Assembly (NCBI GenBank): GCA_951812585.1
Contig: OX638318.1
Span: 1,858,380 to 1,922,379, forward strand
Length of the DNA: 64,000 bases
Reading direction: 5' to 3'
Origin: Rhodothermales bacterium
GTDB taxonomy: Bacteria; Bacteroidota; Rhodothermia; Rhodothermales; Bin80
Positions within the stretch are counted from its first letter, which is position 1. Each line of letters opens with the position of its first letter. The translations under genes and the position numbers were made by a program. The notes beneath the pieces are model-generated. The model worked only from the letters and a program-made list of their open reading frames with translations, ran no database searches and was not told the DNA's origin. Of this stretch, positions 23,317 to 44,012 are shown piece after piece.

Positions 23317-23346
23317 ATCCTACAGGTCGCATCCAGACTCCAAAGA

Positions 23347-24108
23347 CTTGTCCCGGGGTTTTCGAACGCGGGCGGGCAAAATGCTGGTGTCGTAATAGGT
23401 AGCGAAGTCCTGATAGGTTGGATTGAGCTCTGGATCGTAGCGGTGGGCCTTCTTGACGGCAGCCTTCAAATTGTCACAAACGATTGCCTTCGGCACAGCA
23501 CCGAAGTACGATAGGGCGCGCACGTGCGCCATGATCCAGCTACACAGCGATTGATCCGGGACGGCTTCCGCATACGTGAAGTTAGAGCAGCCCAGCGCGG
23601 CTACGAAAATCTGGGCCTTGATAACCTTGCCCGTGACCGGATGAATGAGGTCTACGGTGGTGTCGGCAAAGTCCACAAACAGCTTGTCGCCCGCCTTGTG
23701 CTCCAGGCGTATGACCATCTCCTCTGAGGCGCTCCACGTCTTGTAGAGCGCGCAGAAGTGGCTGTAGCTATAGCCGTCCGGGAAGGCGGTATGGTACAAC
23801 TCCCACACCATTCGCAAAGTGACATGCTTTCGGGACACTTGCTTGTTAACCGCTACCCAGTCCAGCTGGTACCGGGCCTTGGCCGTGGACCGGGACTCCG
23901 GAAAGAACATCGCTTCCAACACATCTTCGGTGATCCCGTCCGGAAGCGGCCAACGCAGTCCCAACGCCTCCGCGCGGCAGAGGTACTTGCGCACCGTGGC
24001 CCGGGCAAGATGCATCGAGTGCCCAATCAGGCGCTTGCTGTAGCCTTCTCGGTAAAAGTAGCGAAGTACGTCTCGGATTTGTCGCATGGAGGTTCGCGCT
24101 CGGGGCAT
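23347..24108 (-). pseudogene. istA: Truncated IS21-family transposase IstA
   Basis: 254 residues homologous to the start of IstA: N-terminal helix-turn-helix (MRQIRDVLRYFYREGYSKRLI, then ARATVRKYL), then the integrase core with the first catalytic Asp in KLFVDFADTTVDLI and the second in AIVCDNLKAAVKK. The match ends at PARVRKPRDK; the last 8 codons are unrelated, and the catalytic Glu, the C-terminal domain and istB are gone. Start ATG 24108 (MPRARTSMRQ) is the family start; the longer open frame up to 24204 is not needed. A related, more decayed copy is at 40960-42390. Confidence 0.85.
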
Positions 24109-24227
24109 CGTTGTGTGCTCTTTTGGTGGAAAAGCGCAACGATAGCCCTCAGGCTTGGTCAAGCTCCAGCGCCCCAGAAGACGGCCTGATTCGGCAAAAC
24201 ACACCCCGGCAAAATCCAGCCGCCAGG

Positions 24228-27282: not shown

Positions 27283-27914
27283 ACGGAAGCCTGGCCATTC
27301 ATTCAGCTGCGAGTCACGCAGCCGGAACAGCCACCCCGGTTCACGGGCACAGGCGCGTGCACACAGGCGCTAACAGATTATGAACAAATGCGGCCCGACC
27401 CGCGGCGCAAAAAGAGTGCGCCGCGGGTCGATGCAATACGTTGGGCTACAGATAAAGCCGGTACGTAAGGCGAATATCGCGCCCTGGCAATGGTATAGCG
27501 TCCTTCAGGATGGAGGTGTGCGGCCGCGCAATTGCATTGGTCAGGTTGCGGCCCTGCAGTGTAAGGATGTGAACGGTGCCCGCAGCGAAGAAACGGTAGT
27601 GTACGGATCCACCGAGGATCGTGTAGCCATCCGTGGTTGTTTCGTGCTCTGCCACGCGATCCTGCTTGCTGACGGACATTAAACTGGCTTGGAATCCCAA
27701 TGCGCCCACGCCGTAGGACAACTCGCCGCCCAAACGCATCGGAGGAATACGCGGTAGGGGCTCCGCCGAATCTGTATGTTCCGCGAACGTATAGTCGCTC
27801 CAAAGGCGCAGATTTACCGTATGCTGACCTCTTTGCATCAGGGATCCATTGGTTTCCAGCTCAAATCCGCGGAATACCGCCGGCTCCTGCTTGACGCGAA
27901 ATACGGGCACACCC
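27283..27914. repeat. 632-bp segmental duplication, copy 2 (within the intact receptor gene)
   Basis: Partner of 22264-22895, about 99% identical. In this copy the segment is continuous with the full TonB receptor reading frame, so this is the parental location. It includes 163 bp downstream of the receptor stop codon. Confidence 0.93.
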
Positions 27915-29896
27915 TCTTCCGTTTCCTCCGTAGGGTCCAGGAAGATGAAGTTTGAGTACCTGTTTGCAAACACTGCGGCGGTAGCCTGAAAGCGCGCTCT
28001 CGTGAGATGGATGGCGCCATCCAGGCTTATGGCGGATTCCACCTCCAAGGCATCGTCACCGATTTCGTAGGCCTGTGTCGCCACATGGTGGCCGTCAGCA
28101 TAGAGCTCTGGTGCAGTGGGAATCTTGACACTTCTTGCCACGCCAAGAGAGAGCGACATCGCACGCGAATACTGATAGTTCATCCCCGCGGTGGCGGAAA
28201 CGCCACCAAGCGAACGCGCCTCGCCTGCTGCGGGTGTGATGTTGGCGTGCTCATACCGCAAGCCGCTTTCCAGGCCAAAGGGGCCGGTTTCCAGACGCTC
28301 CAGGAGGAACAGTGCGAAGCGACTCGTCTCCGATCCAGGCATGAAAGCCTCTTCGCCCACAAGGCCCAAATCGCGCTGTTCCAGATGGATGCCTGCAACG
28401 CCGTGAAAACCCTCGGCCAGTTCGTGGTCCACCTCTACCCGGCCTTCAAGCACATCGTTGGTGAACGTTGTGCCGACCACTTCATGTTCCAGCTCATCGT
28501 GTGCGTAATCTGTCAAGCCCAAACGGAAGTTTATGCCGCGCAACAGCTCACCGTTGGCACGCCACTGGCCTTCAACATCCACGCTGATCTTGTTCATGTC
28601 GACGCGGACGCCGGCATCCTCCTCCTCCTCTTCGTGTTCTTCTTCCTCTTCGTGTTCTTCTTCCTCTTCGTGTTCTTCTTCCTCTTCGTGTTCTTCTTCC
28701 TCCTCGTGTTCTTCTTCATGCTCCTCCTCGTGATGCACATGGCCAGGTATCCCGTACTGCGTGCCGTGGAAGGTCACAGCACCACCGATAAAGCCCGAGG
28801 AACCAATGTAGGACAGCCCTGCAGAGCCTCGGTTTAGCGAAATGTCGCTGTGCTCTATTGACGTAATCTCTTCCTCCTCTTCCTCCTCTTCGTGTTGCTC
28901 ACCCTCCTCTTCTTCCTCGTGATGTTCCTCAATGATGCTCCCGGGCGGCACTCCAAACTCTTCAGTGGCCCGGGTAAGTCCGTTCAGCGCCCACGCGACA
29001 TTGCCTCTGGAGCCGCGCAGCTTGGCGGCGCCCACGCGCCCCTGCGAAATCGAGGAAAACCGCCCGGTAAACGTGCCTTCAATGGCGGCGGTGGGTTTTT
29101 CATTTGGGATCGCCCCTTCATGCACATTAACCACGCCGCCAATTGCGCTGCTGCCGAACAGCAGCGTAGACGAGCCGCGGAGGATCTCAATGCGGTCAGC
29201 AAGGAGCGCTTCGACCGTGGGCGCATGATCGGGGCTGATGTCCGAGACATCTGCCGCGCGCAAACCCTGATTCAACACGCTTACGCGGTTGCCGCCCACG
29301 CCGCGAATGATCGGCCGGCTGGAACCAGGCCCGAAATACGTGGAGGTGATGCCCACCTGTCTATTGAGCGTTTCTCCAAGACTGCCCTCACTGGCCTCTA
29401 AAAGAGCCTGATGCGAAAGGGCGTCGGCCGCCTGTATCGTGCTCGACCGCGTAAGCTCGACCGGTCCTGCAGAAATAATAACCTCGTCCAATGTGTACTG
29501 GACCAGAACTTCCATGGTGAGCTTAATCGTCTGCCCGCTTACTACGGTGGCCTCGCTGATACCGCGGCCCCAGCGCGGACTCACCGCCTCGATGATGCTG
29601 CGCCCAGGTGGTACGTTCTCGAAGACAAAGCGGCCGTTCTCATCCACCGATGTCAACAGACCCATGCCGATGAGGCGAACCTCCGCGTCTAGGGCAGGCT
29701 CGCCGCTTGCATTGTGAATAACGCCTTCAATCTGTCCGGCTAGAGCAGCCAATGCGGCCGTCTGCTTCGCGGCGGTTTCTTGCTCTTCAACTTTCTCTTG
29801 CCTGCTATCCTGAGCAAGGGTGATGCACGGTGTGGCGATTAGCGCGACGAGTGCAAAAAAGCAAATCGCCCAGCTACGCTGGTATAAAGCTGACAT
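27446..29896 (-). CDS. TonB-dependent outer-membrane receptor, probably zinc/metal
   Basis: 816 residues. Signal peptide (FFALVALIATPCITLAQ), then a carboxypeptidase-like regulatory domain (about residues 55-130, IEGVIHNASGEPALDAEVRLIG), a plug with GSLGETLNRQVGITSTYFGPGSSRP and RIEILRGSSTLLFGSSAIGGVVNV, and a 22-strand-type barrel ending DIRLTYRLYL. Two extracellular-loop segments are almost pure His and Glu (about residues 325-345 and 386-425, tandem HEEEEE). His-rich loops occur in zinc importers such as ZnuD, so metal binding is likely, though not proven. It follows a small His/Cys membrane gene by 41 bp in an apparent operon. The 3' end is duplicated at 22264. Confidence 0.92.
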   Translation of the reverse strand: MSALYQRSWAICFFALVALIATPCITLAQDSRQEKVEEQETAAKQTAALAALAGQIEGVIHNASGEPALDAEVRLIGMGLLTSVDENGRFVFENVPPGRSIIEAVSPRWGRGISEATVVSGQTIKLTMEVLVQYTLDEVIISAGPVELTRSSTIQAADALSHQALLEASEGSLGETLNRQVGITSTYFGPGSSRPIIRGVGGNRVSVLNQGLRAADVSDISPDHAPTVEALLADRIEILRGSSTLLFGSSAIGGVVNVHEGAIPNEKPTAAIEGTFTGRFSSISQGRVGAAKLRGSRGNVAWALNGLTRATEEFGVPPGSIIEEHHEEEEEGEQHEEEEEEEEITSIEHSDISLNRGSAGLSYIGSSGFIGGAVTFHGTQYGIPGHVHHEEEHEEEHEEEEEHEEEEEHEEEEEHEEEEEHEEEEEDAGVRVDMNKISVDVEGQWRANGELLRGINFRLGLTDYAHDELEHEVVGTTFTNDVLEGRVEVDHELAEGFHGVAGIHLEQRDLGLVGEEAFMPGSETSRFALFLLERLETGPFGLESGLRYEHANITPAAGEARSLGGVSATAGMNYQYSRAMSLSLGVARSVKIPTAPELYADGHHVATQAYEIGDDALEVESAISLDGAIHLTRARFQATAAVFANRYSNFIFLDPTEETEEGVPVFRVKQEPAVFRGFELETNGSLMQRGQHTVNLRLWSDYTFAEHTDSAEPLPRIPPMRLGGELSYGVGALGFQASLMSVSKQDRVAEHETTTDGYTILGGSVHYRFFAAGTVHILTLQGRNLTNAIARPHTSILKDAIPLPGRDIRLTYRLYL
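28621..28738 (-). repeat. 18-bp tandem repeat encoding HEEEEE units
   Basis: About six units of an 18-base word (TTCGTGTTCTTCTTCCTC on the plus strand) lie in register with the codons and encode repeated His-Glu5. A shorter, less regular run with the same composition lies at about 28868-28930. Tandem copies of this type change number easily by slippage. Confidence 0.85.
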
Positions 29897-29937: not shown

Positions 29938-30357
29938 CTATGCCTTAAGCCAAGCACAGTTATCCCCAGCAGCAGCCATATATATGGATGATGGATGTGA
30001 TTCTGTCCGTGGCGCCGGGGGACCACGAATGGATGGCTGTCTTAAGGGGCGGTTCGGCGGCTTTAACTCTGCGATGGCCGCTGTGCGCTGAATAGTCGGC
30101 GAGGTTTCCGCAGGGAGTAGATACTGCCGCAACGCTTCAAAATCCCGCTGGCAGAGTAGGCAGTCATCTTCCTCCAGAAACTCAAAGTCAGGGTGCCACC
30201 CGCTATGCGTGTGATCACAGTCCAGACCGTAGTGGGCAGCAATACGCAGCCCATGAAGGACGCGGTGGACGGACGGCATCACCGTGCCGCCCACCAAGAA
30301 CGTCACCAGAAGGGCGACTGCGTATCGCCGGGTCACTTGTATGTGCTTAAATCGCAC
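29938..30357 (-). CDS. Small membrane protein rich in His and Cys, upstream of the receptor
   Basis: 139 residues. One N-terminal membrane helix (YAVALLVTFLVGGTVMP, about residues 12-28), then HRVLHGLRIAAHYG, DCDHTHSGWH and a CLLC pair, i.e. several metal-capable residues within about 50 positions, followed by a Pro-rich tail. No named family is recognised; a DUF2946-like relationship is possible. It precedes the His/Glu-rich TonB receptor by 41 bp and shares its promoter region, so a role in metal homeostasis is inferred. Confidence 0.6.
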   Translation of the reverse strand: MRFKHIQVTRRYAVALLVTFLVGGTVMPSVHRVLHGLRIAAHYGLDCDHTHSGWHPDFEFLEEDDCLLCQRDFEALRQYLLPAETSPTIQRTAAIAELKPPNRPLRQPSIRGPPAPRTESHPSSIYMAAAGDNCAWLKA

Positions 30358-30383
30358 CGCCTCTTGTTTCGCGCTGTTGAGCA

Positions 30384-30442
30384 GGCTTATGCATTATAAC
30401 AAGCCCAAATCCATTATACGCATCACGGAATACAAGTTTCAA
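30384..30442 (-). promoter_or_regulatory. Predicted promoter and operator-like palindrome for the receptor operon
   Basis: Read on the minus strand, TTGAAA (30442-30437) and TATAAT (30418-30413) are separated by 18 bp, a good sigma-70-type match. Just downstream, overlapping the expected transcription start, is an interrupted palindrome at 30384-30405 with arms GGCTTaT and its near complement around GCATTATA. It could be the site of a metal-dependent repressor of the Fur/Zur type, but it does not clearly match a published consensus. Confidence 0.45.
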
Positions 30443-30468
30443 GCCAATGCGTCCTGGCGCAAAAAAAC

Positions 30469-31395
30469 CTACATCACGCGGTCCACGAATTCGCGCGTAT
30501 GCACCGCAACCGGGACCTTCATGAGTTCAAGCACGCCGCGGGCCACATGCTCCGAAAGGCGCCGAAATGCTTCCTCCCCCTTCTCCTTGGTGGCGCGCAG
30601 CGGGTTGCCGATGACGCCGCTTTCTACGAACTCATGATGATCCATAGGAAAGGTGAAGTAGTTGTAGCCCTCAAACTCGACATCGGGCATTCCGTCCTTC
30701 TTCTGAAACGACTTGGGCAAAAACGCCGGAATGTGCGCCCGGGTAAACGCTGCGCGCTCCATGCGGACCAGTCGCTCATCCCAGGCTAAGTCCTGCGAAG
30801 TCTCCAGCTCACTGGCGTGCCAGCCCGGCGTCTCGTCCTCCGGGTTTTCCATCAGTCCCTTGAGGATCCCGGTGTAGCGCTCCATGTACGGCTTGACGAA
30901 GCCGATCAGCGCCCCCGTTTCGTAGCGAAGCTTGCGCAGCACCGGATCCACGACTTTCACGTTGGAGCCGTGCCCATTGACAAAGATGATGCGGTTGAAT
31001 CCGTGATGGATCAAGCTGCGCCCCACATCATACATAACAGCCAAGAGCGTGGTGCTCCGCACGGTGATGGTGCCGCGCCCTTCTCCCGGCGCATGCATAT
31101 GCTGGGGGGAGTATCCCATCCAGATGACGGGCGTGTGGATGACGCCGATCATGTGGGCAACCCGCTTGGACATGTGCACGGCCGTCACCGTGTCCGTATA
31201 GAGCGGGAGATGCGGCCCGTGCTGTTCCAGGCTGGCGACCGGGACCAGCACCGTGTCCTTGCAGGTCAGGTACTCCTTGACATCCGTCATAGTGAGGTCG
31301 CCCAAGTCCCAGGAGAGGAACCTGGCTCTGAATTTCTCGTCGCCTTCAGTGAGGCGCGGCAGGTGACTGTAGTCGTACGTGGTTGTTGCAATCAT
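30469..31395 (-). CDS. Creatininase-family amidohydrolase
   Basis: 308 residues. Creatininase/MftE-like fold with metal-binding motifs VASLEQHGPHLPLYTD (Glu, His, Asp), FVNGHGSN and WHASELETS. Members hydrolyse creatinine, formamidopyrimidine intermediates or peptide-derived rings; the substrate cannot be told. The ATG overlaps the upstream UPF0261 stop as ATGA (31392-31395), so they are translationally coupled. It is the last gene of a four-gene minus-strand operon with FAD oxidase, Fe-S protein and UPF0261 protein. The longer frame to 31524 overlaps the neighbour and is rejected. Confidence 0.87.
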   Translation of the reverse strand: MIATTTYDYSHLPRLTEGDEKFRARFLSWDLGDLTMTDVKEYLTCKDTVLVPVASLEQHGPHLPLYTDTVTAVHMSKRVAHMIGVIHTPVIWMGYSPQHMHAPGEGRGTITVRSTTLLAVMYDVGRSLIHHGFNRIIFVNGHGSNVKVVDPVLRKLRYETGALIGFVKPYMERYTGILKGLMENPEDETPGWHASELETSQDLAWDERLVRMERAAFTRAHIPAFLPKSFQKKDGMPDVEFEGYNYFTFPMDHHEFVESGVIGNPLRATKEKGEEAFRRLSEHVARGVLELMKVPVAVHTREFVDRVM

Positions 31396-32606
31396 GCGCC
31401 TTTTGACATGTTGATGAATGCTTCGGCTACCATGCGTCCGAATTCCGGGTCGTTTACGTGGTACGCACAGGTATGCACCGCAATGTCGTCTCTGATGCCC
31501 GCCTTCAGCCGGTCCAGGAAGCACTGATCGGCGGACGGATCCCAGAACACGCCGCCTGGTACGTTGGGGATGGAAAGCCCTTTAGTAGGCACCATCACGT
31601 GCACAGGGCCGCGGGCCGCGGAGAGCTTTCGGGCAAAGAGGTCGCCTAGCTGTCCCATCTCCTCATGCGTAGCGCGCACTAGTACGTATTCAGGGTTGTG
31701 GTCGTACTTGGGGCGGGCCTGCAGCGCCTCCGGCACCGTGCCGCGATTCCAGACGCTGAAGTCAATACATCCAGGCACCACCACCTGGGGCAATCCCAAA
31801 CGGCCCGCAATTTCCAGCCGATTCGGACCACCATCGTGTATCCCGCCCACCATCGGGTCATAAACCTCATTGGTGGTATAGTCGATGATGCCGACAAACT
31901 GTCCAGCCTCAGCGAGCTCCTCCATGGCGGGCCCGCCAACGCCGTTGGAGTGAAAGATCACCGCCTCGTATCCAGCGTCCGCGAGGCGTTCTTTGGCGGC
32001 CATCACGGCGGTGGTCGTGTTGCCCAGCATCGTCACCGCAACATACCTGGCTCCGGGCTGCTGCAAACGGCTCCCGTGCTCCACCATGCCCTTAAGGGCC
32101 GCAGCCACATTGTTAAAGACGGTGCAAGCCACGCTGTTCAGGCCAAGGATGTCCACAACAGAATGGACTACCATCATATCTCGCGTACCAACGAGCGGAG
32201 CAAAGTAGTGGTAGCCCGACGCGATGGGCGACACCAGCACTTTTGGCACGCCTACCGGAAGCACCATCATCGCAGCAGCACCCATCACCGCACCTTCCGC
32301 GCCTCCCATGCTCACCATGGCGTCCAGCCGGCCTTCCGCATAGAGCGTGCGTGTCAAAACCTGTAGGGCGTCGCGCATCATCGCCACGGCACGTCCCCGG
32401 CTTCCTGCCGTTTGCATGGCTTCTAGCGAGGTGCCGCCTGCTTCGGCGACGGTCGCATGGTCTATGTCCGGTACGATATCTAACGGTTCGCCCAGGATGC
32501 CTGAGTCCACGACGATGGTTTGCAGTCCGAGCGACTGCAGGCGATCCCGGAGATATGCGATCTCCGGCCCTTTGGTGTCTAGAGTGCCAACGATTACTAC
32601 CGCCAT
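31392..32606 (-). CDS. Tm-1-like / UPF0261 ATP-binding protein
   Basis: 404 residues. Opens VVIVGTLDTKGPEIAYLRD, the ATP-binding start of UPF0261/Tm-1-like proteins (the Tm-1 plant protein blocks tobamovirus replication; bacterial members are often found in catabolic operons), then SMGGAEGAVMGAAAMMVLPVG, GTRDMMVVHSVVDILGLN, and a C-terminal TIM-barrel-like domain with FHSNGVGGPAMEEL. Biochemical role in bacteria is not settled. The start lies 5 bp after the stop of the Fe-S gene, and its stop overlaps the creatininase start by 4 bp. Confidence 0.86.
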   Translation of the reverse strand: MAVVIVGTLDTKGPEIAYLRDRLQSLGLQTIVVDSGILGEPLDIVPDIDHATVAEAGGTSLEAMQTAGSRGRAVAMMRDALQVLTRTLYAEGRLDAMVSMGGAEGAVMGAAAMMVLPVGVPKVLVSPIASGYHYFAPLVGTRDMMVVHSVVDILGLNSVACTVFNNVAAALKGMVEHGSRLQQPGARYVAVTMLGNTTTAVMAAKERLADAGYEAVIFHSNGVGGPAMEELAEAGQFVGIIDYTTNEVYDPMVGGIHDGGPNRLEIAGRLGLPQVVVPGCIDFSVWNRGTVPEALQARPKYDHNPEYVLVRATHEEMGQLGDLFARKLSAARGPVHVMVPTKGLSIPNVPGGVFWDPSADQCFLDRLKAGIRDDIAVHTCAYHVNDPEFGRMVAEAFINMSKGA

Positions 32607-32611
32607 GGTCT

Positions 32612-33688
32612 CTAGGCGCGGGTCAGGGTTGCGAGCGTGTTGAACAGGCCATGGATCGTTAGTCCATACTCTGACGCATACCGCTCCAAATGGTGCAGAG
32701 TGCCTGGATCTTCGCAGAGCAACGTCGATGCTCCCGTGCGCCTGGCATCTTCCAGGCGCGCTCTGGTGAGCGCCTCCGCGATGTCCGGGCGGGAGAATTG
32801 CAATGCGGTGCTTCCTACAGGGTGTGCTCGGTCCCTTCGCCAGAACAGTTCCCGCGGCGGCTGTCCGAGGGCAGCATCACAGAGTTCTCGAACCGGCCCA
32901 AAGCGTTCCGGTGTGCGCACGGCATGCGTCGGGTCGATGTAGGTGGCGTCGCCGCTGCCAGGGCACAGTCGCAGCGTGCCTTTGGCCAGTTGGGCGGCTA
33001 GGAAGGTGGCCAGGTCCACAAGTTCGATGTCGGGCGGCCAGGTAATGTCCAGGCGCTCTGGATAGAGCTTCCGAAATGCAAACAGGTCCACTGGAGCCAG
33101 GACCAGGACCTTGCGCGCGCCGGCGGCGCGAATCTCTTCGAGGCAAGCCAGCGCTTGTGTGCGGGCAGTCTCAGGAAACCCCAGTGAACATGCCATATAG
33201 CCCGTGCTGGCACCGATGCCGATGGGTGCGACTTCAACCCTGATCGCCCGCAGCAGCGCATATACGCTCGTTACGCACGCAGGCCGCAGGTTGTGGGCTT
33301 CATCCCCTACGAATAGCGCCACATCCGCCGCCCCGGAAGACGCAAGGCGCTCGCCAAAGGCAGAGCCCGTCCGCGCAAGGCGTTCATGGATCTGATATAC
33401 GGAAGGTGGTGCCAGGCCTTCAGCGCACACGGCTGCGCGGATTGCCGCGATGGCTGCCGGCAGGCGCTGATCCGTAACGCAGTGGGCGCGGCAGTTGCCC
33501 GTGTCGGGCTCTGCATACAGCACGTCCACTGACGACGGGTTCCAATCCAGCAATCCGCGGTTTACCGAGGCAGCGACTAGCGCGATGCCATGCGGCGTGA
33601 CCGTCTCGTCGTGCATCACATGCCCAACCGGTGCTGCGTGGCGGCACATCAGGCAGTAGCGGCAGTTCTCAATGGCAGTAGCGGACAT
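32612..33688 (-). CDS. Fe-S-binding, GlcF/CCG-like partner of the FAD oxidase
   Basis: 358 residues. Near the N terminus a CRYCLMCR motif (Cys-x2-Cys-x2-Cys) can hold an iron-sulfur cluster. The rest resembles the heterodisulfide-reductase/GlcF-type Fe-S subunits: domains with LFVGDEAHNL, GIGASTGYM, KVLVLAPVDLFAF and LRLCPGSGDATYIDPTHAV. Such subunits pass electrons from flavin oxidases of glycolate, lactate or related 2-hydroxyacids to the respiratory chain. The ATG 33688 overlaps the stop of the FAD-oxidase gene (TGATG). The apparently single CxxCxxC set is fewer than in classical GlcF, so the protein is atypical. Confidence 0.8.
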   Translation of the reverse strand: MSATAIENCRYCLMCRHAAPVGHVMHDETVTPHGIALVAASVNRGLLDWNPSSVDVLYAEPDTGNCRAHCVTDQRLPAAIAAIRAAVCAEGLAPPSVYQIHERLARTGSAFGERLASSGAADVALFVGDEAHNLRPACVTSVYALLRAIRVEVAPIGIGASTGYMACSLGFPETARTQALACLEEIRAAGARKVLVLAPVDLFAFRKLYPERLDITWPPDIELVDLATFLAAQLAKGTLRLCPGSGDATYIDPTHAVRTPERFGPVRELCDAALGQPPRELFWRRDRAHPVGSTALQFSRPDIAEALTRARLEDARRTGASTLLCEDPGTLHHLERYASEYGLTIHGLFNTLATLTRA

Positions 33689-35115
33689 CAAAAGCCTACT
33701 TTACCCGGATTCATGATCCTATTGGGGTCCAATGCCTTCTTTATGCGCTCCAGGAGCGGCCACGCATCCCCGTACTGGCGTCGCATATAGCGCGACAGCT
33801 TAAGCCCCACGCCGTGGTGCTCGTTAACCATGCCGCCGTTCTCCAGCACGGCGGTCATCGCCGTATTCCAGACGCGGTTATGCAATCGCACGGCTTCTTG
33901 CGCATCCTCCGGCGGGTTCTTGATGATAAAGCGCGTGTACACCATGACACCCCAGTGGAACCAATGCGAAAAGTGGCCGATGAAGTCAATATCTCGATCC
34001 TTGAAGCCTTCCTCTACTGCGCGCTTTTCAGCGTAGTAGAGTTTTTCAATCTTGTCGTAGGTCGTTACCGTTTCAGTGGTTCCGTACATCCAGGGCAGCT
34101 TGAGGCTTTGGGGCGGATAGTAGAAGTCGTAGCGATGATTCCACCACGATTCTCCAGGCTCCCGTCCCAGGTCTTTCGCGCCGAAGCGTAAGATGATCTC
34201 CATCGCCTTCTGCTCCTGTAGTGCGGCCAGGTCTTTATCGCCGTCGAATCCTATCACCATGTAGGCACCCTCCAGTTCGTACCCCAGAATCTTCTTCACA
34301 CGCGAAGCCGTGGAGCGCGGGTCGTAGAGCCGGATCACGAAGGGATCCAAGCGCCGCGTCATGATCTGCCGACCCGCCTCGATAGCGTCCGCCAGGTTTT
34401 CGAAGAGCACAGCCCTTAACAGGCGCGCCTCCGGCAGATAGTCCAGCTGCATGGTGGCCTCCGTGATGACGCCAAGGGTTCCTTCCGCGCCCAGAAAGAG
34501 GCGATAGAAGTCTGGTCCCGCTGCATGCTGTGGCACGACGGGCGTGCGCATGATATGGCCATCGGGCAGGACGACCTGCATGCTCAGTACCAGGTCTTCC
34601 GCTTTGCCGTACTTCGTGCTGATGGTGCCCGTGCCGCGCGGCGAAAGGTAGCCGCCCAGCGTAGCGCAGTTGGCAGAAGCGGGGTAGTGCGGCAGCATCA
34701 GACCCTTGTCGTTGAGCGCCCATTCCAGCTGTGCGCCGTTGATGCCCGCTTGGGCCGTCACGGTCAGCGACTTCTCATCGATCTCAATGATGCGGTTCAT
34801 CCGTTTGGTATCCAGGATGATGCCGCCATAGATGCTCAGTGCGCCGCCTTGCGAACCAGATCCGCCGCCCCATGGGATCACCGGGATGCGGTAGGTGTTC
34901 GCGATCTGAAGGATGGCCGATACCTCTTCGGCATTACCTGGCCGCACGATATAGTCGGGCTTGCGCGGCTTTTCGCCCCGATCTAGCCACATCTGCGGCA
35001 GCCAGAACCAGTCTGTAGCATAGACCAGCCGGGCGGTGTCGTCCGTCGAGAGGTTCGGCGTGCCGACGACTTCCTCCAGTTCGCTGCGAATCATTTCGGC
35101 CTGCAAGCCTACCAT
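33688..35115 (-). CDS. FAD-linked oxidase (GlcD/alkyl-DHAP-synthase-like)
   Basis: 475 residues. FAD_binding_4 domain with RPGNAEEVSAIL, PWGGGSGSQGGAL (the FAD pyrophosphate-binding loop), ANCATLGGYLSPRGTGTISTKYG, LFLGAEGTLGVITEATM, and the FAD-oxidase C-terminal domain ending DPNRIMNPGKVGF. These enzymes oxidise 2-hydroxyacids or glycerol-phosphate-like compounds. ATG 35115 is preceded by AGGCGGAG, a strong ribosome-binding site; the longer frame to 35259 lacks one and overlaps the divergent ThuA gene. It heads the operon with the Fe-S, UPF0261 and creatininase genes. Confidence 0.87.
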   Translation of the reverse strand: MVGLQAEMIRSELEEVVGTPNLSTDDTARLVYATDWFWLPQMWLDRGEKPRKPDYIVRPGNAEEVSAILQIANTYRIPVIPWGGGSGSQGGALSIYGGIILDTKRMNRIIEIDEKSLTVTAQAGINGAQLEWALNDKGLMLPHYPASANCATLGGYLSPRGTGTISTKYGKAEDLVLSMQVVLPDGHIMRTPVVPQHAAGPDFYRLFLGAEGTLGVITEATMQLDYLPEARLLRAVLFENLADAIEAGRQIMTRRLDPFVIRLYDPRSTASRVKKILGYELEGAYMVIGFDGDKDLAALQEQKAMEIILRFGAKDLGREPGESWWNHRYDFYYPPQSLKLPWMYGTTETVTTYDKIEKLYYAEKRAVEEGFKDRDIDFIGHFSHWFHWGVMVYTRFIIKNPPEDAQEAVRLHNRVWNTAMTAVLENGGMVNEHHGVGLKLSRYMRRQYGDAWPLLERIKKALDPNRIMNPGKVGF

Positions 35116-35197
35116 CGGTCTCCGCCTTTCTGCGAAAGTGATGCCATTAGCAGTATAATACGGTATTCCATCAGGCATTCGTAAACCGTGCAGTGCC

Positions 35198-36061
35198 ATG
35201 TCCTTGCTCTTTGCTGCTATTGCGGTGCTTACCGCAAACCCGTCGGTGCTTTTGATCACCGGTCAGAACAATCACGACTGGGAGCGCACCACGCCCATGC
35301 TCGAATCCATACTGCAGTCCCAATTTGAGGTCACGCTATCGCAGACGCCGCCCAGGGGTGCAGCGTCCGCGGCATGGGATGCGTGGCGCCCGGACTTCGG
35401 CGCATACGATGTGGTGCTGCTCAATTACAATGGAGAGGCGTGGCCATTGGCTGTTCAGGCAGACTTTGAAGCGTATGTCGCGGGCGGCGGCGCGGTTTTG
35501 GTGCAGCATGCATCCAACAACTCCTTCCGGGGCTGGGAGGCCTACGAATCGATGGTGGGACTGTTGTGGCGGAGTCCGGACGCGGGCTACGGCGCTCACC
35601 TTGACAGCACGGGTGCTCTGGTGCGCGTACCGCCGGGCGAAGGCCGCGGCGCGGGTCATGGCCGGCTGCATGACTGGCAGATCATGACGCGTGACGCGGA
35701 GCATCCCATCATGGTGGGGCTGCCTGCGGTGTGGATGCATCCGCACGACGAGCTATACCACAGCCAGCGGGGGCCTGCGGAGGATATGCATGTCCTGGCT
35801 TCCGCTTGGTCCGATCCCAAGTACGGCGGCACGGGAGCACACGAGCTTATGGTGTGGTGGATTCCGTACGGCAGCGGTAAGGTGTTGACACTCTTGCCGG
35901 GCCATTTGTGGCGCGACCAAGACGACGATCGCGCCATGCGGTGCGCGGGGTTTCAGACGCTTTTGCAGCGAAGCGTCGAGTGGCTTGCCACGAACGCGGT
36001 CACCATTCCGGTACCGGACGACTTTCCTACCGCAGACCAGGCCAGCGTGCGCGCCTGGTGA
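35198..36061 (+). CDS. ThuA-domain protein
   Basis: 287 residues. The N-terminal stretch (MSLLFAAIAVLTANPS) could be a short signal peptide. ThuA-like (class I glutamine-amidotransferase-fold, trehalose-utilisation type) features: LLITGQNNHDWERTTPMLESIL, DVVLLNYNGEAWP, FEAYVAGGGAVLVQHASNNSF, DAEHPIMVGLPAVWMHPHDELY, and GSGKVLTLLPGHLW. ThuA proteins are linked to sugar metabolism but most have no assigned reaction. It is divergent from the FAD-oxidase operon (82 bp between starts) and is probably controlled from the same intergenic region. Confidence 0.86.
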   Translation: MSLLFAAIAVLTANPSVLLITGQNNHDWERTTPMLESILQSQFEVTLSQTPPRGAASAAWDAWRPDFGAYDVVLLNYNGEAWPLAVQADFEAYVAGGGAVLVQHASNNSFRGWEAYESMVGLLWRSPDAGYGAHLDSTGALVRVPPGEGRGAGHGRLHDWQIMTRDAEHPIMVGLPAVWMHPHDELYHSQRGPAEDMHVLASAWSDPKYGGTGAHELMVWWIPYGSGKVLTLLPGHLWRDQDDDRAMRCAGFQTLLQRSVEWLATNAVTIPVPDDFPTADQASVRAW

Positions 36062-36098: not shown

Positions 36099-37052
36099 CT
36101 ACAGATCTTCTGGCCGCATCCCAGCCTTGAATTTGTCGCCGAAGCCGGAGTTGTTCGGATCGAACGGCGCTGCCAGCGCCGCGTTGGCTCCACCTTCGGG
36201 TACGTCGTGCCCTAGGGCCCAGAGGATTCCGTTAAGTGCAAGCCGTCGCATCGATGCATCCTTGAAGTCGTACGGGTGTCCGAGCGTGGTGAAGAAGACG
36301 CGCGCCGCCGTACCCGAAGCGCCGGTATAGGTCTTGGTCCAGGCCACCGGATTGGTCAGCGGAAACCGGTCCAGGCGGTTGTTATTGGCATGGCCGGATT
36401 TGAGCGCCTTGCCCATGAGGAGCGGTTCGCTATCGCCATACAGTGCGTAATCGCCGCCATGGACATGGTACAGCCAGGAGTATGCCTGAAACGGCTCCAC
36501 GCCGCTAAGGACCGGATGATCGGCCATATCCTCGATGAGTGTCACATCCGTGAGCGGGTTGGCTCCATCATCAAAATGCCCGTGGTGCGTAATCCATTTC
36601 TGTCCAAAGACTTTGATCGGCCAGTCGTCGTTAAGGTGGACACGCGCCGCATCGTCTCTGTACAGGAATGCGTGCGTCGCAGTTCTGAATCCCGCCATCG
36701 GCTTGCCGGATTCCGCAAAGTCCAGGATGTACTTGGCCTGGCTGTCCGGCAGCGCCCGAAACCGCGTGAACATGACCATCATGTCGGCCTCTTCCAAGGC
36801 GTTCAGCCCTGCGATGTTGTCCAGCACGTTGGGGTCGATGTAGCCTTCCTCATTGAGTGCATAGAGCACCGTTACGTCAAAGCCGTAGTCTCGTTTAAGG
36901 ATTTTGGCGAGCATCGGCATGGACTCTTCGGAGCGGTACTCTTCATCTCCTGTGACAAAGACGATATGCGTAGGCGGGTCCGCCGGCTGCGGTGCAGCGC
37001 AGCTCATGAGCAGCAGGGTCGCGATTCCGAAGCGCATATAGGGCATCAGCAA
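36099..37052 (-). CDS. ThuA-domain lipoprotein
   Basis: 317 residues; the likely start is MRFGIATLLL within the open frame (ATG about 37037). A lipobox LLMSC gives a lipoprotein. The ThuA domain is visible in HIVFVTGDEEYRSEESMPMLAKIL, EADMMVMFTRFRALPDSQ, GFRTATHAF, HHGHFDDGANPLTDVTLIEDMADHPVLSGV, and FTTLGHPYDFKDASMRRLALNGILWALG. The second ThuA gene is convergent with the first. Their products share the same fold but low sequence identity, so they are not a recent duplication. The substrate is unknown. Confidence 0.85.
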   Translation of the reverse strand: MLMPYMRFGIATLLLMSCAAPQPADPPTHIVFVTGDEEYRSEESMPMLAKILKRDYGFDVTVLYALNEEGYIDPNVLDNIAGLNALEEADMMVMFTRFRALPDSQAKYILDFAESGKPMAGFRTATHAFLYRDDAARVHLNDDWPIKVFGQKWITHHGHFDDGANPLTDVTLIEDMADHPVLSGVEPFQAYSWLYHVHGGDYALYGDSEPLLMGKALKSGHANNNRLDRFPLTNPVAWTKTYTGASGTAARVFFTTLGHPYDFKDASMRRLALNGILWALGHDVPEGGANAALAAPFDPNNSGFGDKFKAGMRPEDL

Positions 37053-37350
37053 TGGCTCAGTAGTCTATCACCAATGTACGTCAGGACACCAGTGAACCGC
37101 AAAGGGGCAAGCATGCACGCCAGCAATTACGTCGGCTCCTTAGATGCCCTGAGCCGGGACTCCTACCAGGTTATGGTTGCTGGTGGCGACAGCTTTTCGC
37201 AGAGGGCACTTCCAAATACTCGCGGATAAGTGCGTGGGCGGACGACGATAATTAGTTTGAACTGACCGCCAATACCGGCGTGACCTGCCACAATACTATC
37301 TTCTACTCAATTTGCTGAAGATTCCCAAACCTGACTGGCGGAGAATCCAA

Positions 37351-37670
37351 ATGGACCAGAAGCACGGCGCGCAAACAGCATGGGCAAAAGCACAAGATGG
37401 CGTGCCTACACTGACCCTTGTTGACCACTCAATTGATGTCGCTGCGGTCGCCGAGGCATTACTGCGGCTGCCGACCGTTGCTGATCGGCTTTCGAGGCTT
37501 GCGGAATCCGAGATCACCGCTGTTGACAGGGCCCGCCTCGCGTTCTTCATAGGCTTGCATGACGTTGGAAAGGCAAACAGCGGATTCCAAAGGAAACTGC
37601 GCTCACAAAAGCCGAGTGCCGGCCACATAGGACCTATTTGGGATATTCTGTGCGGACCTCTTGTCTACAA
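37351..37670 (+). pseudogene. cas3: cas3 remnant: HD-nuclease start of a type I-E Cas3
   Basis: 106 residues, opening MDQKHGAQTAWAKAQDG and continuing to DHSIDVAAVAEALLRLP (the first metal-binding His), then LAFFIGLHDVGKANSGFQRKL, which is the HD motif in the form seen in type I-E Cas3 (IALHDIGK..FQ). The frame stops at 37674 in a codon created by the left end of an IS1634-type element; the remainder of the HD domain and the helicase are gone. Its plus strand orientation matches the cse1 and cse2 relics at 55.1-56.1 kb. The in-frame TTG 37312 gives a longer form; the ATG is preferred. Confidence 0.7.
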
Positions 37671-39816
37671 CTGAACTTCATAGTAGTCGGGCGCAGCCTC
37701 ACCCTCGCGGCGCAGTCGGGAGGCCCATTTTGACACCTTTTTCAGTCGTTTTTGGGCCGATTTGGGCACAAATGGCCCTTAAAGTGGGATTTTCGCCGTG
37801 ATTTGAGGCGATTGTCAACCTGATGGTCCGTTTTCGGGCTGCCCGTGTGTCGCCAGATCACGGTGAACGACGAAACGGCACAATATGTGAGAATAATGTC
37901 ATTATTTTCGCCTTTTCTTGCATATATCGCCCCCTTCCTTGTGGGCATACGACACCATAGCATATCTGCCCATGTATGTAGCACGCATCCCGAATCGGAA
38001 TTCAAACCCCACGTGGCTGCTGCGGCAGTCCACCTGGAAGAACGGCAAGAGCGTGAAAACCACCCTCAGCAACCTGACCAAGGTGCCGCACGAGTTCAGA
38101 ATGCAAATCCGAGCGCTGTGCAGGGGGGGCATTGTTGTGCGCGATGTGCGGGGGTATTTCAGGGAAGTGTACCAGAGCGCGCAAAGCGCGCCACACGGAC
38201 CTGTGGCTGCTACGCAGGGGACCCTGCGCAAGCTAAAACGCGATCAGCTCATCAGCGCGCGCACCCCGCGGGTGCGTACCATCGTGCTGGCCCTCCTTGT
38301 CCGTCGCATCCTCAACCCCGGCAGCAAGTATGCCCCCGCAGCGCGCTTCGGGCGGAAGCCCAGCCCCGCAGCCTGGGAGGGGAGCTCGCACTGGAGCACG
38401 TGCACGAGAACGCGATCTACCAGGCCATGGATTGGCTCTACAAGCGCAAGGACGCCATTGAACAGGAGCTCGCAGCCCGTCATCTGAAGGAGGGATCGGT
38501 CGTGCTCTGTGACGTCCCATCCCCGTACGTAGTGGGCCACGGCGCCGATCTGGCTGCATTCGGCTACTGCAGAGACAAGAAGAAGGGCACCAAGCAGATC
38601 CACTTCGGTCTGCTCTGCGACAAGGCCGGCCGGCCGGTGGGGGTGGAGATGTTTTCGGGCAATACGGCCGATCCCGCTACGCTTACTGCGCAGCTGCAGA
38701 AGCGCAAGGAGCGTTTTGGCCTGTGCCGGGTCACGATTGTAGGAGACCGCGGACTGCTGACGCATGCGCGGCTCACCGAAGCAGTGCAGCCGGCCGGCTA
38801 TGACTGGATCACCGGCCTGCGCAAAGGCGCCCTCCATCGCCTGGTGCAGAAAGAGGACCGCCCGCTGACGCTGTTTGACGAGAGGGATCTCGCGGAGATC
38901 ACCAGCGACGGCTATCCCGGCGAGCGGCGCATCGTGTGCCGCAACCCGCTGATGGCCGCGCGTGCAAGGCATAAACGCGCGGCATGGTTCCAGGCTACGG
39001 AAAAGAAGCTGGACGCACGGGTGGCGGCCGCCGTGCGCAAGCGGAGGCCGCTCCGGGGCACGGACAAGATTGCCCTGCGCGCAGGCGCCCTCCTGGGCCG
39101 CTACAAAATGCAGAAGCACATTACGACGGTCATCTCTGACGAAGCCTTCAGCTACCCGCGCGACGAAGCATCCATAGCGCTGGAAGCCCGTCTGGACGGC
39201 ATGTACGCGATTCGCACCAATGTGACCGAGGACGCGCTCGCATCCGACGAGGCCGCCGCTTCCTACAAGCAGCGGGCGGTAGTGGAAAAGGCCTTCCGCA
39301 GCCTCAAGACCGTTGATCTGAAGGAGCGCCCCATCTACCACGATCGGGCCCGCCGCCTTCAGTGCCCCCTCTTCCTGTGTATGCTGGCCTATTACGTACA
39401 GTGGCACATGAAAGACAAGCTGGCCCCCATGCTGTTCGCGGAGGAGGATCTGGCGGCGGCCAAAGCGGCCCGTGCCAGCGTGGTGGCGCCGGCGGAACCC
39501 TCCCCGGAGGCACAAAGTAAGGCACGAACCAAAAAGACCAGCGACGGCGCTCGCGCCACCAGCTTCCAGTCGCTGCTGCGCCACCTGGCTCAGCTGGGCA
39601 AGTGCAAGCTGGTAGAGAAGAACAAGCCTGAGGAGACGATCAGGCTGGTGCTGCAGACGCTAAGCCCCAAGCAGAAGAAGGCCTTCAGGCTGCTCGGCGT
39701 AAGCCACCACTAGGCGGGCCGACAGCGCAGCCAGCCAGCGGCACTCGTCGCAAATTCCACAAAAAAAACAAGCGCCTTCTCGGTCCCCTTGCCGGGTAGA
39801 ATACTATGAAGTTCAG
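37671..39816 (+). mobile_element. IS1634-type insertion sequence with 15-bp terminal inverted repeats
   Basis: Left end CTGAACTTCATAGTA (37671-37685) is the exact reverse complement of TACTATGAAGTTCAG (39802-39816). The enclosed DNA holds a single transposase gene in plus orientation with long flanks (about 300 bp left, 90 bp right). I see no clear target-site duplication (TCTACAA on the left versus ATTAGAG on the right), so the surrounding DNA may have been deleted or rearranged after insertion. The left end interrupts cas3. Confidence 0.82.
37972..39713 (+). pseudogene. IS1634-family transposase, frameshifted
   Basis: The N terminus (ATG 37972, MYVARIPNRNSNPTWLLRQS) runs in one frame to about 38350; from there the C-terminal 440 residues continue in the next frame (EHVHENAIYQAMDWLYKRKD..., VLCDVPSPYVVG, TIVGDRGLLT with catalytic Asp, QRAVVEKAFRSLKTVDLKERP with catalytic Glu). 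Family proteins are one continuous chain, and the junction reads RFG|AEAQP. It is best explained by loss of one base in the TTCGGGCGGAAG run (38347-38358). DDE residues are kept. A programmed shift is not suggested by a slippery site. Probably inactive. Confidence 0.82.
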
Positions 39817-40033: not shown

Positions 40034-40888
40034 TCATTCTGGAGATCCGGACACGGGCTGTGTTACTTCGAGTTGCCCCATCCCAAACACACTCCCCTTC
40101 CCCACATGCAGCCAGCGCAGTGCAGCGAGCAGAGGCCACAACTCACCAGGGCCGTGAGGAAGCCACATGCTTCCCGTAACCCCGTAAAGCTTGACTTCCC
40201 GCTTTTGAGCAGCTGACCAGCGAACCAAGTCTGCCCGCTCACCGTGCCACGCTGTTGAAGGTACACGGACTGCTGCAACCCTAATCCGCTCTTGGAAGTG
40301 TCGATATTCGGTGCCTCTGCCCAGCCCAGCCAAGTGTGCCAACCGCCGACCTCCCGCGACAGCCAGGTCAAGCAAAGAAGGGTCCTCCAGCAGTTTGCCT
40401 TTGCGAAGGATTCGAAGGGGCGTAGGAAAAGTAAGCTTGCACGCGGCCCTCGCTGGATCTTCACCCACGGGCCAATCGCAGGCAAGGGAATCCAACGCAT
40501 TGGTATCGCGGCCCACTGAAATGAGCAGCGCCTTTTCACGAACGCGAAACGGCTCTCGTTGTGCTCCCAAGCCCATCCCACAGGCCATAAGCCATGCCTG
40601 CCACAGCACGGTCTCAGTTGACGGCTCTACGTTAACCAGGATAAAATCGATGGCTGGCGCAGTGATGGGATCTGGGGGAGCCGGGCGAATGATGTATTTC
40701 GGAACGCGCTGGCTGGCAGCTCCACCGCCCTGGAATACGTCTGCATAGGCGTGTTCATTCAGAAACTTAAGCGCTCGTCCCCACACACCGCGCAACATCG
40801 GTGTCGTTGCATGCACAAGAGGGGTCTCCAGTAAGAGTCTCCAAGCAGAGAAGCTGATACGGCCAAGAATGTCCTCCAGCTGTGCCAT
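40034..40888 (-). CDS. cas6: CRISPR precrRNA endoribonuclease Cas6 (RAMP family)
   Basis: About 284 residues. Cas6 cuts precursor crRNA within repeats to give guides with an 8-nt 5' tag. The RAMP fold is seen in the C-terminal glycine-rich loop HVGKGSVFGMGQLEV, the hallmark of Cas6 and other RAMP proteins; the length and the long N-terminal domain (FILVNVEPSTETVLWQAWLMACG) fit the COG5551 type found with type III-B systems. The catalytic histidine cannot be assigned safely. GTG 40900 is an alternative start. Cas6 is cut off from the rest of the locus by the IS21 relic and the array, but lies on the same strand. Confidence 0.85.
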   Translation of the reverse strand: MAQLEDILGRISFSAWRLLLETPLVHATTPMLRGVWGRALKFLNEHAYADVFQGGGAASQRVPKYIIRPAPPDPITAPAIDFILVNVEPSTETVLWQAWLMACGMGLGAQREPFRVREKALLISVGRDTNALDSLACDWPVGEDPARAACKLTFPTPLRILRKGKLLEDPSLLDLAVAGGRRLAHLAGLGRGTEYRHFQERIRVAAVRVPSTAWHGERADLVRWSAAQKREVKLYGVTGSMWLPHGPGELWPLLAALRWLHVGKGSVFGMGQLEVTQPVSGSPE

Positions 40889-40959
40889 TGAGCTTTGCAC
40901 TTACCGCTGTTGAAGCTAGCGCTGAAATTAGTCATAGATTCCATACCGATTCGTTGGGA

Positions 40960-42390
40960 TCTGAGGATGCTGCGGTGTAATAGGCTGCTCTGCGGATGTT
41001 GGCGTGCTGGATCACCGGCGGATCCGCTTCAGGGGCTTCATCGCGGTCCCGGCCGGTCTTGAGAAATGGAGGCGACGCTCTTGTAATTGCAAGTGCCCAG
41101 CACCAGTGTGAGACGGCAGGCAGCTTCGAGTCGTGCCTTCGGATACTTGTTCGCCAGAGTACCATGGTGCTCTCGAAGCCCTGCTCCAGATGCTGGCGAG
41201 GGCCATGATGGTCTCCGCCAGCACCTCTGCAAAGGGTCCCATGGCCCCGGTTCGCTTCAATAAGCGTGTCTGGTCCTGATACTGGCGATGTTCGCTGGGC
41301 ATGTGCGCCGGCTTGGTGTGATGAAAGTCTTGAGTCGAATGCGTTGGCTGCGGATAAAGATTTCGACCATGTGTTCGCTCATGCAAACGTCCACCTTCTT
41401 GCGCACAAACCGGTAGGGTATGCTGTAATGTAATAGGCGTAGTTCACCTAGGCATGGTAATCATCGATGTTGGCTGTACGCTTCTTCCACTCCGCTCGTA
41501 AAGGTGGACGGCCCCGGAGGAAGCGGGCGCATAGCAGGCCGGTCCGACTCCCTCAAAATGGCTGTGCCGAGCTTCTTCTGAAAAGGTTTGTCGTTAAGCT
41601 GCGCCAATAACGGTGCGATGGCTCTCCGACAAGCTGAAGAATTGCCGATCATGCAGCCGGCCCAGAGTCCACGTTCCAACGAAGCGGACCGCTTGCTCGA
41701 CACAGGTTTTACCCCGGAGCTTTCTCACGCGAGCAGCCAGCATTGCCGTGTCGTAGTGCCTGGGCAACTGCTGGTACGTCCGGTTGATGTCGGGATCGTA
41801 GCGATGGGGCTTCTTGACGGCCGCCTTCAGATTGTCGCAGACTACGGCAGCCGGTCACGGCGCCAAAGGATGCAAAGGCGCGCACATGTACGCCAATCCA
41901 GCTGCGTAGTGTCTGATCCGGCGCCAGTTCAGCATAACGTGTAATGCGAACAGCCGAGTGTGGCCACAAAGATCTGTGCCTGTGACACTGTACCCGTACC
42001 AGAAGCAATGACCGGCACGGTGGTGCCGGCAAAGTCCACCAATAGTTTGTCTCCGGCCTGGTGCTCCAAGCGCATGACCATTGGCTGCTTCTCCAGTCCT
42101 TAGTAGAGCTGGTAGAAATGGCTGTAGCTGTAGCCATCAGGCTGTGCTGCGTGGTAGTCTTTGCCAGACCTGCTCCGGCGTCATGCCCTTGCGGCTACCT
42201 TCTTTGTGATGTCGGGCCGATCAGGCTGGGACCGCACGGGCGTCGCTGCAGTCTCTGGATACAAGAGCAGTGCAAGCGTCGCGTCTCCCAGCTCTCCGGA
42301 GCAATACGCATGCTGCGCGCAATCAAGCGCTTGATGAGATGCTCCCGATGATAGTAGCGGGGTACGTCTCTGACTTTTCGCATGGAAGTT
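40960..42390 (-). pseudogene. istA: Degenerate IS21-family istA between cas6 and the CRISPR array
   Basis: IstA is recognisable in pieces spread over all three minus frames: N terminus TSMRKVRDVPRYYHREHLIKRLI near 42383; TYAELAPDQTLRSWIGVHVRAFASFGAV near 41900; RRAIAPLLAQLNDKPFQKK and SDRPAMRPLPP near 41550; HTKPAHMPSEHRQYQ near 41300; KARLEAACRLTLVLGTCNYKSVASI near 41100; and HANIRRAAYY near 40980. They are in the order of a full-length IstA, so one complete gene has decayed by several frameshifts. No istB remains. It is related to, but older than, the truncated copy at 23347-24108. Confidence 0.85.
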
Positions 42391-42501
42391 CGCTTCTGTG
42401 TCGTCGTGCTCCGGTTGGTGAAAAGAGCAGCGAAAGCCTTACTGCGAGGCATGCTCCAACATCCGATGACTTTAGACTGAATACACTCCGAGTAGGTAGT
42501 C

Positions 42502-42520
42502 TCAATCGGAATATGCAGGC
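42502..42520 (-). mobile_element. Terminal sequence of the IS21 relic
   Basis: TCAATCGGAATATGCAGGC matches the terminus at 24261-24279 in 17 of 19 positions. It ends about 30 bp from the first CRISPR repeat, so the element inserted next to, or into, the distal end of the array. Confidence 0.65.
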
Positions 42521-42549
42521 AGGTACAGCCTTTTTCCTGGCAGGCTGCG

Positions 42550-43724: not shown

Positions 43725-44012
43725 TTAGGCGATAAACACCTGCTCCTCCCCAATGGTTCTGGCCTTTGCACTTGACCCATGATAGCGCCGGTTACTCTCG
43801 CAATTTGCACACAGATGGTAAACGGCCACCTGGTCTACCACTGGATCAATAAGCGCGTTGACTTGATCTAGGCACCGCTTGTAATTCCGGAGGCTCACTT
43901 TCAGTTCAAAAACGCTCTTTTGCGCCCGGTCTCCGTAGGAATCCAGACAGTCGGCGACCTTTTTTCGCCGTTTATTGTTTGTAATATCGTAGCAGACGAC
44001 GTAGCGAGGCAT
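43725..44012 (-). CDS. cas2: CRISPR adaptation endonuclease Cas2
   Basis: 95 residues, typical length. Starts PRYVVCYDITNNKRRKKVADCLDSYGDRAQKSVFEL, with the conserved first-strand Asp (YDIT) and the R-x-QKSVFE dimer strand of Cas2. Together with Cas1 it forms the integrase complex that inserts new spacers at the leader-proximal repeat. It starts 15 bp after the cas1 stop and is the last protein gene before the leader. Confidence 0.95.
   Translation of the reverse strand: MPRYVVCYDITNNKRRKKVADCLDSYGDRAQKSVFELKVSLRNYKRCLDQVNALIDPVVDQVAVYHLCANCESNRRYHGSSAKARTIGEEQVFIA

Follow-up and report, generated by a model that had tools for sequence, protein, structure and literature searches.

A four-gene operon of a Rhodothermales bacterium, with a cluster-depleted Fe-S subunit, as the possible core of a catabolic pathway for polyhydroxylated compounds

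The inositol operon of Thermotoga maritima, which Rodionova et al. reportedly described in 2013, is a described system against which the locus studied here can be set. In excerpts of PMC5931981 and PMC12632266, it comprises TM0411-TM0416 and encodes IolG, IolM, IolN, IolK, and IolO, the last a 5-keto-L-gluconate 4-epimerase (PMC12632266); TM0416 is also classed as an L-ribulose 3-epimerase in an excerpt of PMC8167858, and inositol did not support T. maritima growth in the one study excerpted from PMC3750489. Two further comparisons concern parts of the locus. GlcDF, LutABC, LdhH, and EtfD likewise combine a FAD_binding_4/FAD-oxidase_C protein with a subunit of two-ferredoxin, two-CCG fold, and UPF0261 proteins co-evolve with a TIM-barrel (triosephosphate isomerase barrel) protein, TBST, to the extent that 491 of 504 TBST-bearing bacterial genomes have UPF0261 (excerpt of PMC5028733). 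Here, we analyze an operon of four genes, for a flavin adenine dinucleotide (FAD) protein, an iron-sulfur (Fe-S) subunit, a UPF0261 protein, and a creatininase-family hydrolase, in a window of 64,000 nucleotides that covers positions 1858380-1922379 of the 3.2-Mb single-contig genome of a Rhodothermales bacterium (G000). Quite possibly, though we stop just short of calling it probable, the operon supplies the central steps for catabolizing a polyhydroxylated compound that is probably cyclic (a cyclitol, lactone, or sugar acid), by a pathway that resembles the Thermotoga route without belonging to it.

The open reading frames (ORFs), their common placement on the minus strand, and their junctions all agree with the four-gene operon of the original prediction, joined by overlaps of 1-4 bp or a 5-bp gap (Table 1). 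As read from the sequence, the FAD and Fe-S genes overlap by 1 bp (TGATG), 5 bp separate the Fe-S and UPF0261 genes, and the UPF0261 and creatininase genes overlap by 4 bp (ATGA). A promoter scan of positions 30100-35400 returned four sites where 1.7 were expected, none of them located on the minus strand ahead of the FAD gene, and a terminator scan did not rise above chance. The Fe-S gene is present in 16 of 59 relatives, namely 14 of 16 same-family genomes and 2 of the 43 others of the order. The FAD gene occurs in the identical 16, and the creatininase gene in these 16 and in G010, where just the gene end remains at a contig edge. The order FAD, Fe-S, UPF0261, creatininase is unbroken in 14 same-family genomes; both the FAD and the Fe-S gene are missing from G002, another member of the family. 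The joint occurrence of the gene set is far beyond chance.

Scanning public genome contigs with an Fe-S alignment, in which 13 of the 16 relative sequences were aligned, yielded 50 loci. A few are distant; most belong to metagenome-assembled genomes from Chloroflexota, Rhodothermota/Bacteroidota, Trueperaceae, Poribacteria, Balneolota, and Acidobacteria. In these loci, gene picking recovered the FAD gene in 48, the Fe-S gene in 47, UPF0261 in 41, creatininase in 40, and a gene for an epimerase-like protein in 33. Many of these misses are contig ends, and the Fe-S count is too low, since the ORF was lost to an overlapping frame in L065 and L074, and a match is listed in all 50. In 22 loci, from Chloroflexota, Deinococcota, Bacteroidota/Rhodothermota, and Acidobacteriota, the order is FAD, Fe-S, epimerase, UPF0261, creatininase, and most of the remaining loci hold the four-gene set; a divergent ThuA gene accompanies the four genes in seven loci, and five more add a convergent epimerase gene. 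Because the order is conserved and the genes co-occur, among the 59 relatives as among the 50 loci, the gene products very probably cooperate, as had been predicted; a lack of conservation in other genomes had been named as grounds for giving this up, and the set proves to be conserved across phyla. No description of the gene set was found in the open-licence papers searched, and a plasmid search with the Fe-S protein returned one record only (Georgenia, 26.3% identity, 65% of the query).

No Pfam family matches the Fe-S protein at E<=0.1, and a PDB sequence search gave it no nearest solved structure. Its model (predicted local distance difference test, pLDDT, 92.4) finds its best fold matches in EtfD (template modeling score, TM, 0.78), LutA, and HdrB, and a profile comparison (hhalign, 99.6%) aligns its entire sequence with an HdrD-like protein that G000 also encodes and that carries two ferredoxin motifs and two CCG domains. 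As modeled, the subunit adopts a GlcF/LutA-type fold but lacks the CCG cysteines. An alignment of 44 sequences (the window protein, 41 of the 50 loci, one relative, and one Mesorhizobium protein) has the CCG, DPCHxGR, and CPxC motifs replaced, with the CCG cysteines absent throughout. At the eight ferredoxin positions, the window protein has five cysteines only, enough for one [4Fe-4S] cluster; it thus holds one full site where a GlcF-type protein has two such sites and CCG cysteines. C9, C12, and C15 are each found in 43/44 sequences, as is C70, and C66 is found in 32/44. All eight cysteines are present in 18 sequences and all except position 12 in one more; 13 are without cysteines 19, 60, and 63, 11 are without these and 66, and the Mesorhizobium protein retains one of the eight. 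Cysteines 19, 60, and 63 are, therefore, together present in 19/44 and together absent in 25/44. Following the topology of two-[4Fe-4S] ferredoxins, we assign 19, 60, 63, and 66 as ligands to one cluster and 9, 12, 15, and 70 to the other.

Mapped on a tree of the FAD protein (47 rows), the two cluster states need five changes, of which at least four are forced by well-supported branches. When two long branches, L046 and the Mesorhizobium row, are excluded (45 rows), four changes are needed and at least three are forced. The changes needed on the tree argue that the second ferredoxin cluster has been lost several times, as a unit, with the gene retained. Compared with GlcDF, LutABC, LdhH, and EtfD, the operon's subunit differs in having no CCG cysteines (44/44) and, in 25/44 sequences, no second ferredoxin cluster, and because of these losses, electron transfer through the Fe-S protein, as originally proposed, is doubtful. 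The GlcF-type fold of the predicted partner stands; its clusters are reduced to the ferredoxin cysteines of one.

The FAD protein is the most conserved of the set, with 73-90% identity among relatives. Its predicted likeness to GlcD holds at the domain level, with Pfam scores of 143.8 bits for FAD_binding_4 (cut-off 26.4) and 102.9 bits for FAD-oxidase_C (cut-off 21.2). Against the GlcD equivalog TIGR00387, it scores 189 bits, under the cut-off of 567.9, and with the Fe-S ligands of its partner missing as well, membership of GlcDF was rejected. The nearest solved structures are alkyl-dihydroxyacetone phosphate (alkyl-DHAP) synthase and then D-lactate dehydrogenase. H381, H384, H433, and H434 are invariant in 46/46 aligned relatives and E432 in 45/46, and the signatures GHxGDGNxH and EHG of the D-lactate dehydrogenase match read GHFSHWFHW and NEHHG. 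Alkyl-DHAP synthase shares the HxSH and HHG(V)G segments, but it has HHH before GVG, whereas the operon protein reads N-E-H-H-G-V-G, with E432 replacing His; the operon protein also differs in having an Fe-S partner and a catabolic context. The residue pattern appears intermediate between D-lactate dehydrogenase and alkyl-DHAP synthase, which makes a redox role likely. Plain D-2-hydroxyacid catabolism, in which a GlcDF-type dehydrogenase would feed quinone and the other two genes would process the 2-oxoacid, would account for GlcD and D-lactate dehydrogenase among the FAD protein matches, for the retained GlcF-type fold, and for a LarA-type racemase gene near 4/50 loci. It is, however, unlikely, though not far-fetched, given the low GlcD score, the altered dehydrogenase signatures, and the loss of all CCG cysteines and often of one ferredoxin cluster.

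The UPF0261 protein scores 165.2 and 228.3 bits for the N- and C-domains of its family in Pfam (cut-offs 27). Its nearest solved structures are tomato Tm-1 and 9MPY, with which it shares the UPF0261 fold: its model (pLDDT 90.1) matches the Tm-1 N-domain (3wrw, Z 42.1) and 9MPY (Z 33.1) along its whole length. Outside its own family, a fold search gave Rossmann-like and alpha/beta-hydrolase matches only, with middling Z, which were not used. 9MPY is Saro_1862 of Novosphingobium aromaticivorans with acetovanillone bound, the sole UPF0261 structure with a small-molecule ligand among those found here, and it is identical at 43 of the 58 columns invariant in 40 UPF0261 sequences of these loci (32% identity overall). 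In the excerpted account of acetovanillone breakdown in this organism, the first step belongs to the kinase MarK. The bound ligand and a breakdown that starts with a kinase suggest, by analogy, that UPF0261 is probably the operon's kinase, an assignment we rate above the pathway as a whole; the earlier view that the role of UPF0261 proteins in such operons is unsettled is, to that extent, dated. The same ligand would suit an aromatic substrate, a lignin-type phenol or ketone, with a flavoenzyme of the vanillyl-alcohol oxidase superfamily, a MarK-like kinase acting on the phenolic hydroxyl, and the hydrolase on a beta-dicarbonyl. Vanillyl-alcohol and eugenol oxidases are indeed distant matches of the FAD protein, but they are far weaker than the best match (about 1e-15 versus 1.8e-60), the conserved neighbors comprise a ketose epimerase together with kinases and importers for sugars, and no aromatic-ring gene recurs among the neighbor clusters examined, so that this alternative is very unlikely.

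The operon's UPF0261 also differs from the UPF0261-TBST pairs in that its partner is creatininase rather than the TIM-barrel TBST (PF09370). One TBST gene is present in 16/16 same-family genomes, most of which have two UPF0261 genes; in G000, the sole PF09370 gene lies at C1:2181766 and the operon at about C1:1889000, so the two are not paired. With one TBST gene and mostly two UPF0261 genes, the operon copy seems to represent a second kind, one linked to creatininase. The other UPF0261 gene of this genome (G000:C1:1798374-1799567; L002, L034) is 38% identical and is followed by a cupin gene and a gene for a ThuA-DUF7133-plastocyanin-like (copper) protein, which give no substrate clue.

The hydrolase belongs to the creatininase superfamily (PF02633, 200.5 bits, cut-off 31.3). 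E57, H59, H142, H193, E196, and E198 are invariant in 22 sequences and D68 nearly so, and we take E57, H59, H142, and D68 to be metal ligands. The family name, and creatinine amidohydrolases as the nearest solved structures, favor the breakdown of a nitrogen ring or amide, as originally suggested. Yet the protein scores 112.3 bits against TIGR04448 (creatininase), under the cut-off of 235, and all 22 sequences have S144 at the position of creatininase E122, presumably a ligand there. No nitrogen-compound genes recur near the operon, where the neighbors are of sugar type: ketose-3-epimerase-like, short-chain dehydrogenase/reductase (SDR), Gfo/Idh/MocA, xylulokinase, ribokinase, sugar ATP-binding cassette (ABC) importers, and GntR-FCD. 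We rejected a nitrogen-ring substrate, which on the score, S144, and the neighbors is hardly credible; the other half of the proposed substrate, a hydroxy compound, remains sensible. Decayed extra creatininase copies with stop codons occur at G005:C3:1452019-1452907 and G013:C26:9863-10420, with intact operon copies elsewhere.

The epimerase-like protein is an AP_endonuc_2 TIM barrel, ketose-3-epimerase-like, with TM_0416 as its best PDB match and IolO as its best NCBIfam match. Its gene is present in 10/10 same-family genomes searched. In G000, it lies at C1:2571664, as the last gene of a second operon (G000:C1:2565360-2572548), after genes for a planctomycete-type PSCyt1/PSCyt2/PSD1 protein, a DUF1501 protein, an SDR, and an RbsB/RbsA/RbsC-type importer, whose RbsB-type binding protein is encoded at C1:2567472-2568641. 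In 7/7 regions fetched, G000 included, the epimerase gene closes this operon and accompanies the SDR and the importer; some contigs cut the first gene of the second operon, and its surroundings vary in G005 and elsewhere. In the catabolic pathway proposed for the two operons, the compound would be imported by the ribose-type ABC transporter and oxidized first by the SDR, both of the second operon, and then by the FAD protein together with the Fe-S subunit. The creatininase-family metal enzyme would hydrolytically open the dicarbonyl or lactone so formed, the ketose-3-epimerase-like TIM barrel would rearrange the product, and UPF0261 would phosphorylate it for entry into central metabolism. The Thermotoga inositol route, whose IolO and IolN the epimerase and hydrolase resemble below the family cut-offs, similarly has oxidation, a creatininase-family hydrolase (from the NCBIfam matches here, IolN appears to be one), a kinase, a ketose-3-epimerase-like enzyme, and a sugar importer. 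It differs in using nicotinamide adenine dinucleotide (NAD) dehydrogenases where the operon has the FAD/Fe-S pair and a ribokinase-family kinase where it has UPF0261. Working from the observed gene content, linkage, co-occurrence, families, conserved candidate active-site residues, and Fe-S ligand loss, we infer every reaction, the reaction order, and the substrate class; any exact substrate is graded much lower than the class of pathway.

A Gfo/Idh/MocA dehydrogenase is near the operon in 15/50 loci, further TIM-barrel isomerases in 14/50 (cluster c6) and 7/50 (c12), xylulokinase in 4/50, and ribokinase in 3/50. In Chloroflexota, the surroundings include Gfo/Idh/MocA, sugar kinases and aldolases, cupins, LarA, and more of the TIM-barrel isomerases, and in Trueperaceae, the operon adjoins a GntR-FCD regulator and a sugar importer. 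Homologs of the divergent ThuA neighbor occur in 13/15 wide loci around the Fe-S gene, and of the second ThuA gene in 5/15. Processing of 3-keto-sugars (glycosides), in which the FAD enzyme would form a keto-sugar that ThuA, isomerase, and hydrolase rearrange and release, fits this ThuA gene and the Gfo/Idh and several AP_endonuc_2 proteins near the operon in Chloroflexota. But ThuA is present in only 12/50 public loci, none of them outside the lineage of the window, and glycoside hydrolases do not recur near the operon; this alternative, which draws on a general link of ThuA to 3-keto-sugars, is quite unlikely.

Related genes also occur on plasmids. In Thermus plasmids, creatininase and UPF0261 are adjacent as in the operon (47.5% and 38.3% identical to its proteins, respectively), and a class II aldolase gene overlaps them, an arrangement consistent with a lyase acting after a kinase. 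The cluster differs in having no FAD/Fe-S pair and in having instead a Zn dehydrogenase, the aldolase, and a tripartite tricarboxylate transporter; an isomerase gene is also near. On a plasmid of Mesorhizobium sp. B2-1-8 (L086:9974-12558), an FAD gene 54% identical to the operon's follows a xylulokinase gene rather than preceding UPF0261, and the next gene encodes a protein weakly similar to the Fe-S subunit with almost no ferredoxin cysteines.

Several observations weigh against the pathway for polyhydroxylated compounds. In the distant relatives L079 and L081, the FAD and Fe-S genes have neither UPF0261 nor creatininase close by. In G002, the second operon is present and the FAD and Fe-S genes are absent, so the link between the two operons is not a strict one. 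The match of the epimerase to IolO (NF041099) reaches 130 bits for a cut-off of 300, and the hydrolase scores 89.6 bits against IolN (NF041098, cut-off 245), below its scores for creatininase and for MftE (100.1 bits, itself below cut-off). Straight IolN/IolO membership was rejected on these two cut-offs. The Thermus isomerase is just 23% identical to the operon's epimerase-like isomerase, and the Thermus dehydrogenase matches threonine dehydrogenase (244.8) above IolM (225.2). Alkyl-DHAP synthase, nearest in structure to the FAD protein, is by our understanding a non-redox flavoenzyme. Finally, MarK is only probably Saro_1862 (9MPY), and the compound on which MarK is known to act is an aromatic ketone rather than a sugar.

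A more elaborate history, possible but doubtful as a whole, would have both CCG sites lost before the family spread, and a ferredoxin cluster at least three or four times thereafter, with every cluster gone in a Mesorhizobium relative and the gene nonetheless kept beside that of the flavoprotein. The partner would now be a structural, substrate-channeling, or single-step redox subunit, the flavoprotein might pass its electrons elsewhere or be non-redox in the manner of alkyl-DHAP synthase, and UPF0261 would be a kinase coupled to a creatininase-type ring-opening hydrolase instead of its usual TIM-barrel partner.

Table 1. Features of the operon and its ThuA neighbors (window positions)
Feature	Position	Strand	Basis or remark
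FAD-binding oxidoreductase, 475 aa	33688..35115	-	Pfam FAD_binding_4 + FAD-oxidase_C
GlcF/LutA/HdrD-type Fe-S subunit without CCG cysteines, 358 aa	32612..33688	-	Alignment, profile comparison, model
CxxCxxC (C9, C12, C15) of Fe-S subunit	33644..33664	-	Three putative ligands of the sole remaining cluster
C66...C70 of Fe-S subunit	33479..33493	-	C70 expected to complete the ligand set of the remaining cluster as its fourth member
UPF0261/Tm-1-like protein, predicted small-molecule kinase, 404 aa	31392..32606	-	Pfam, fold match
Creatininase-family hydrolase, 308 aa	30469..31395	-	Pfam Creatininase
ThuA-domain protein, divergent neighbor, probably linked	35198..36061	+	Pfam ThuA
Second ThuA-domain protein, looser link	36099..37052	-	Pfam ThuA

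Other elements of the window include a Type III (Cmr-type) locus of clustered regularly interspaced short palindromic repeats (CRISPR) and Cas genes at 40034-53678, with Cas6, Cas1, a Csm6-type HEPN protein, a Cmr5-RAMP fusion, and Cmr2/Cas10. Its array has nine repeats (about 37 nt shared) at 42547-43193, and the Cmr5-RAMP fusion, a single ORF of 877 aa, was judged unusual. At 37312-37674, a 120-aa ORF matches only the beginning of the Cas3 HD domain, and a DDE transposase gene follows directly (37845-39713); the arrangement resembles a cas3 gene interrupted by an insertion. A TonB-dependent receptor at 27446-29896 has a long internal run of His/Glu repeats (HEEEE...), which suggests a metal as its substrate. 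Further transposase ORFs lie at 23320-24204, matching an integrase core domain, and at 53617-55067, as a pair of overlapping ORFs (transposase, putative).

If the pathway reading is true, uncultured Chloroflexota, Rhodothermales, Trueperaceae, and others would have in common a catabolic pathway made of families that are usually annotated by name only. UPF0261, the family of the tomato resistance protein Tm-1, would then be a metabolic kinase in a defined pathway. The series of subunits with two, one, or no clusters would provide natural material on what the Fe-S partner of a flavoprotein does.

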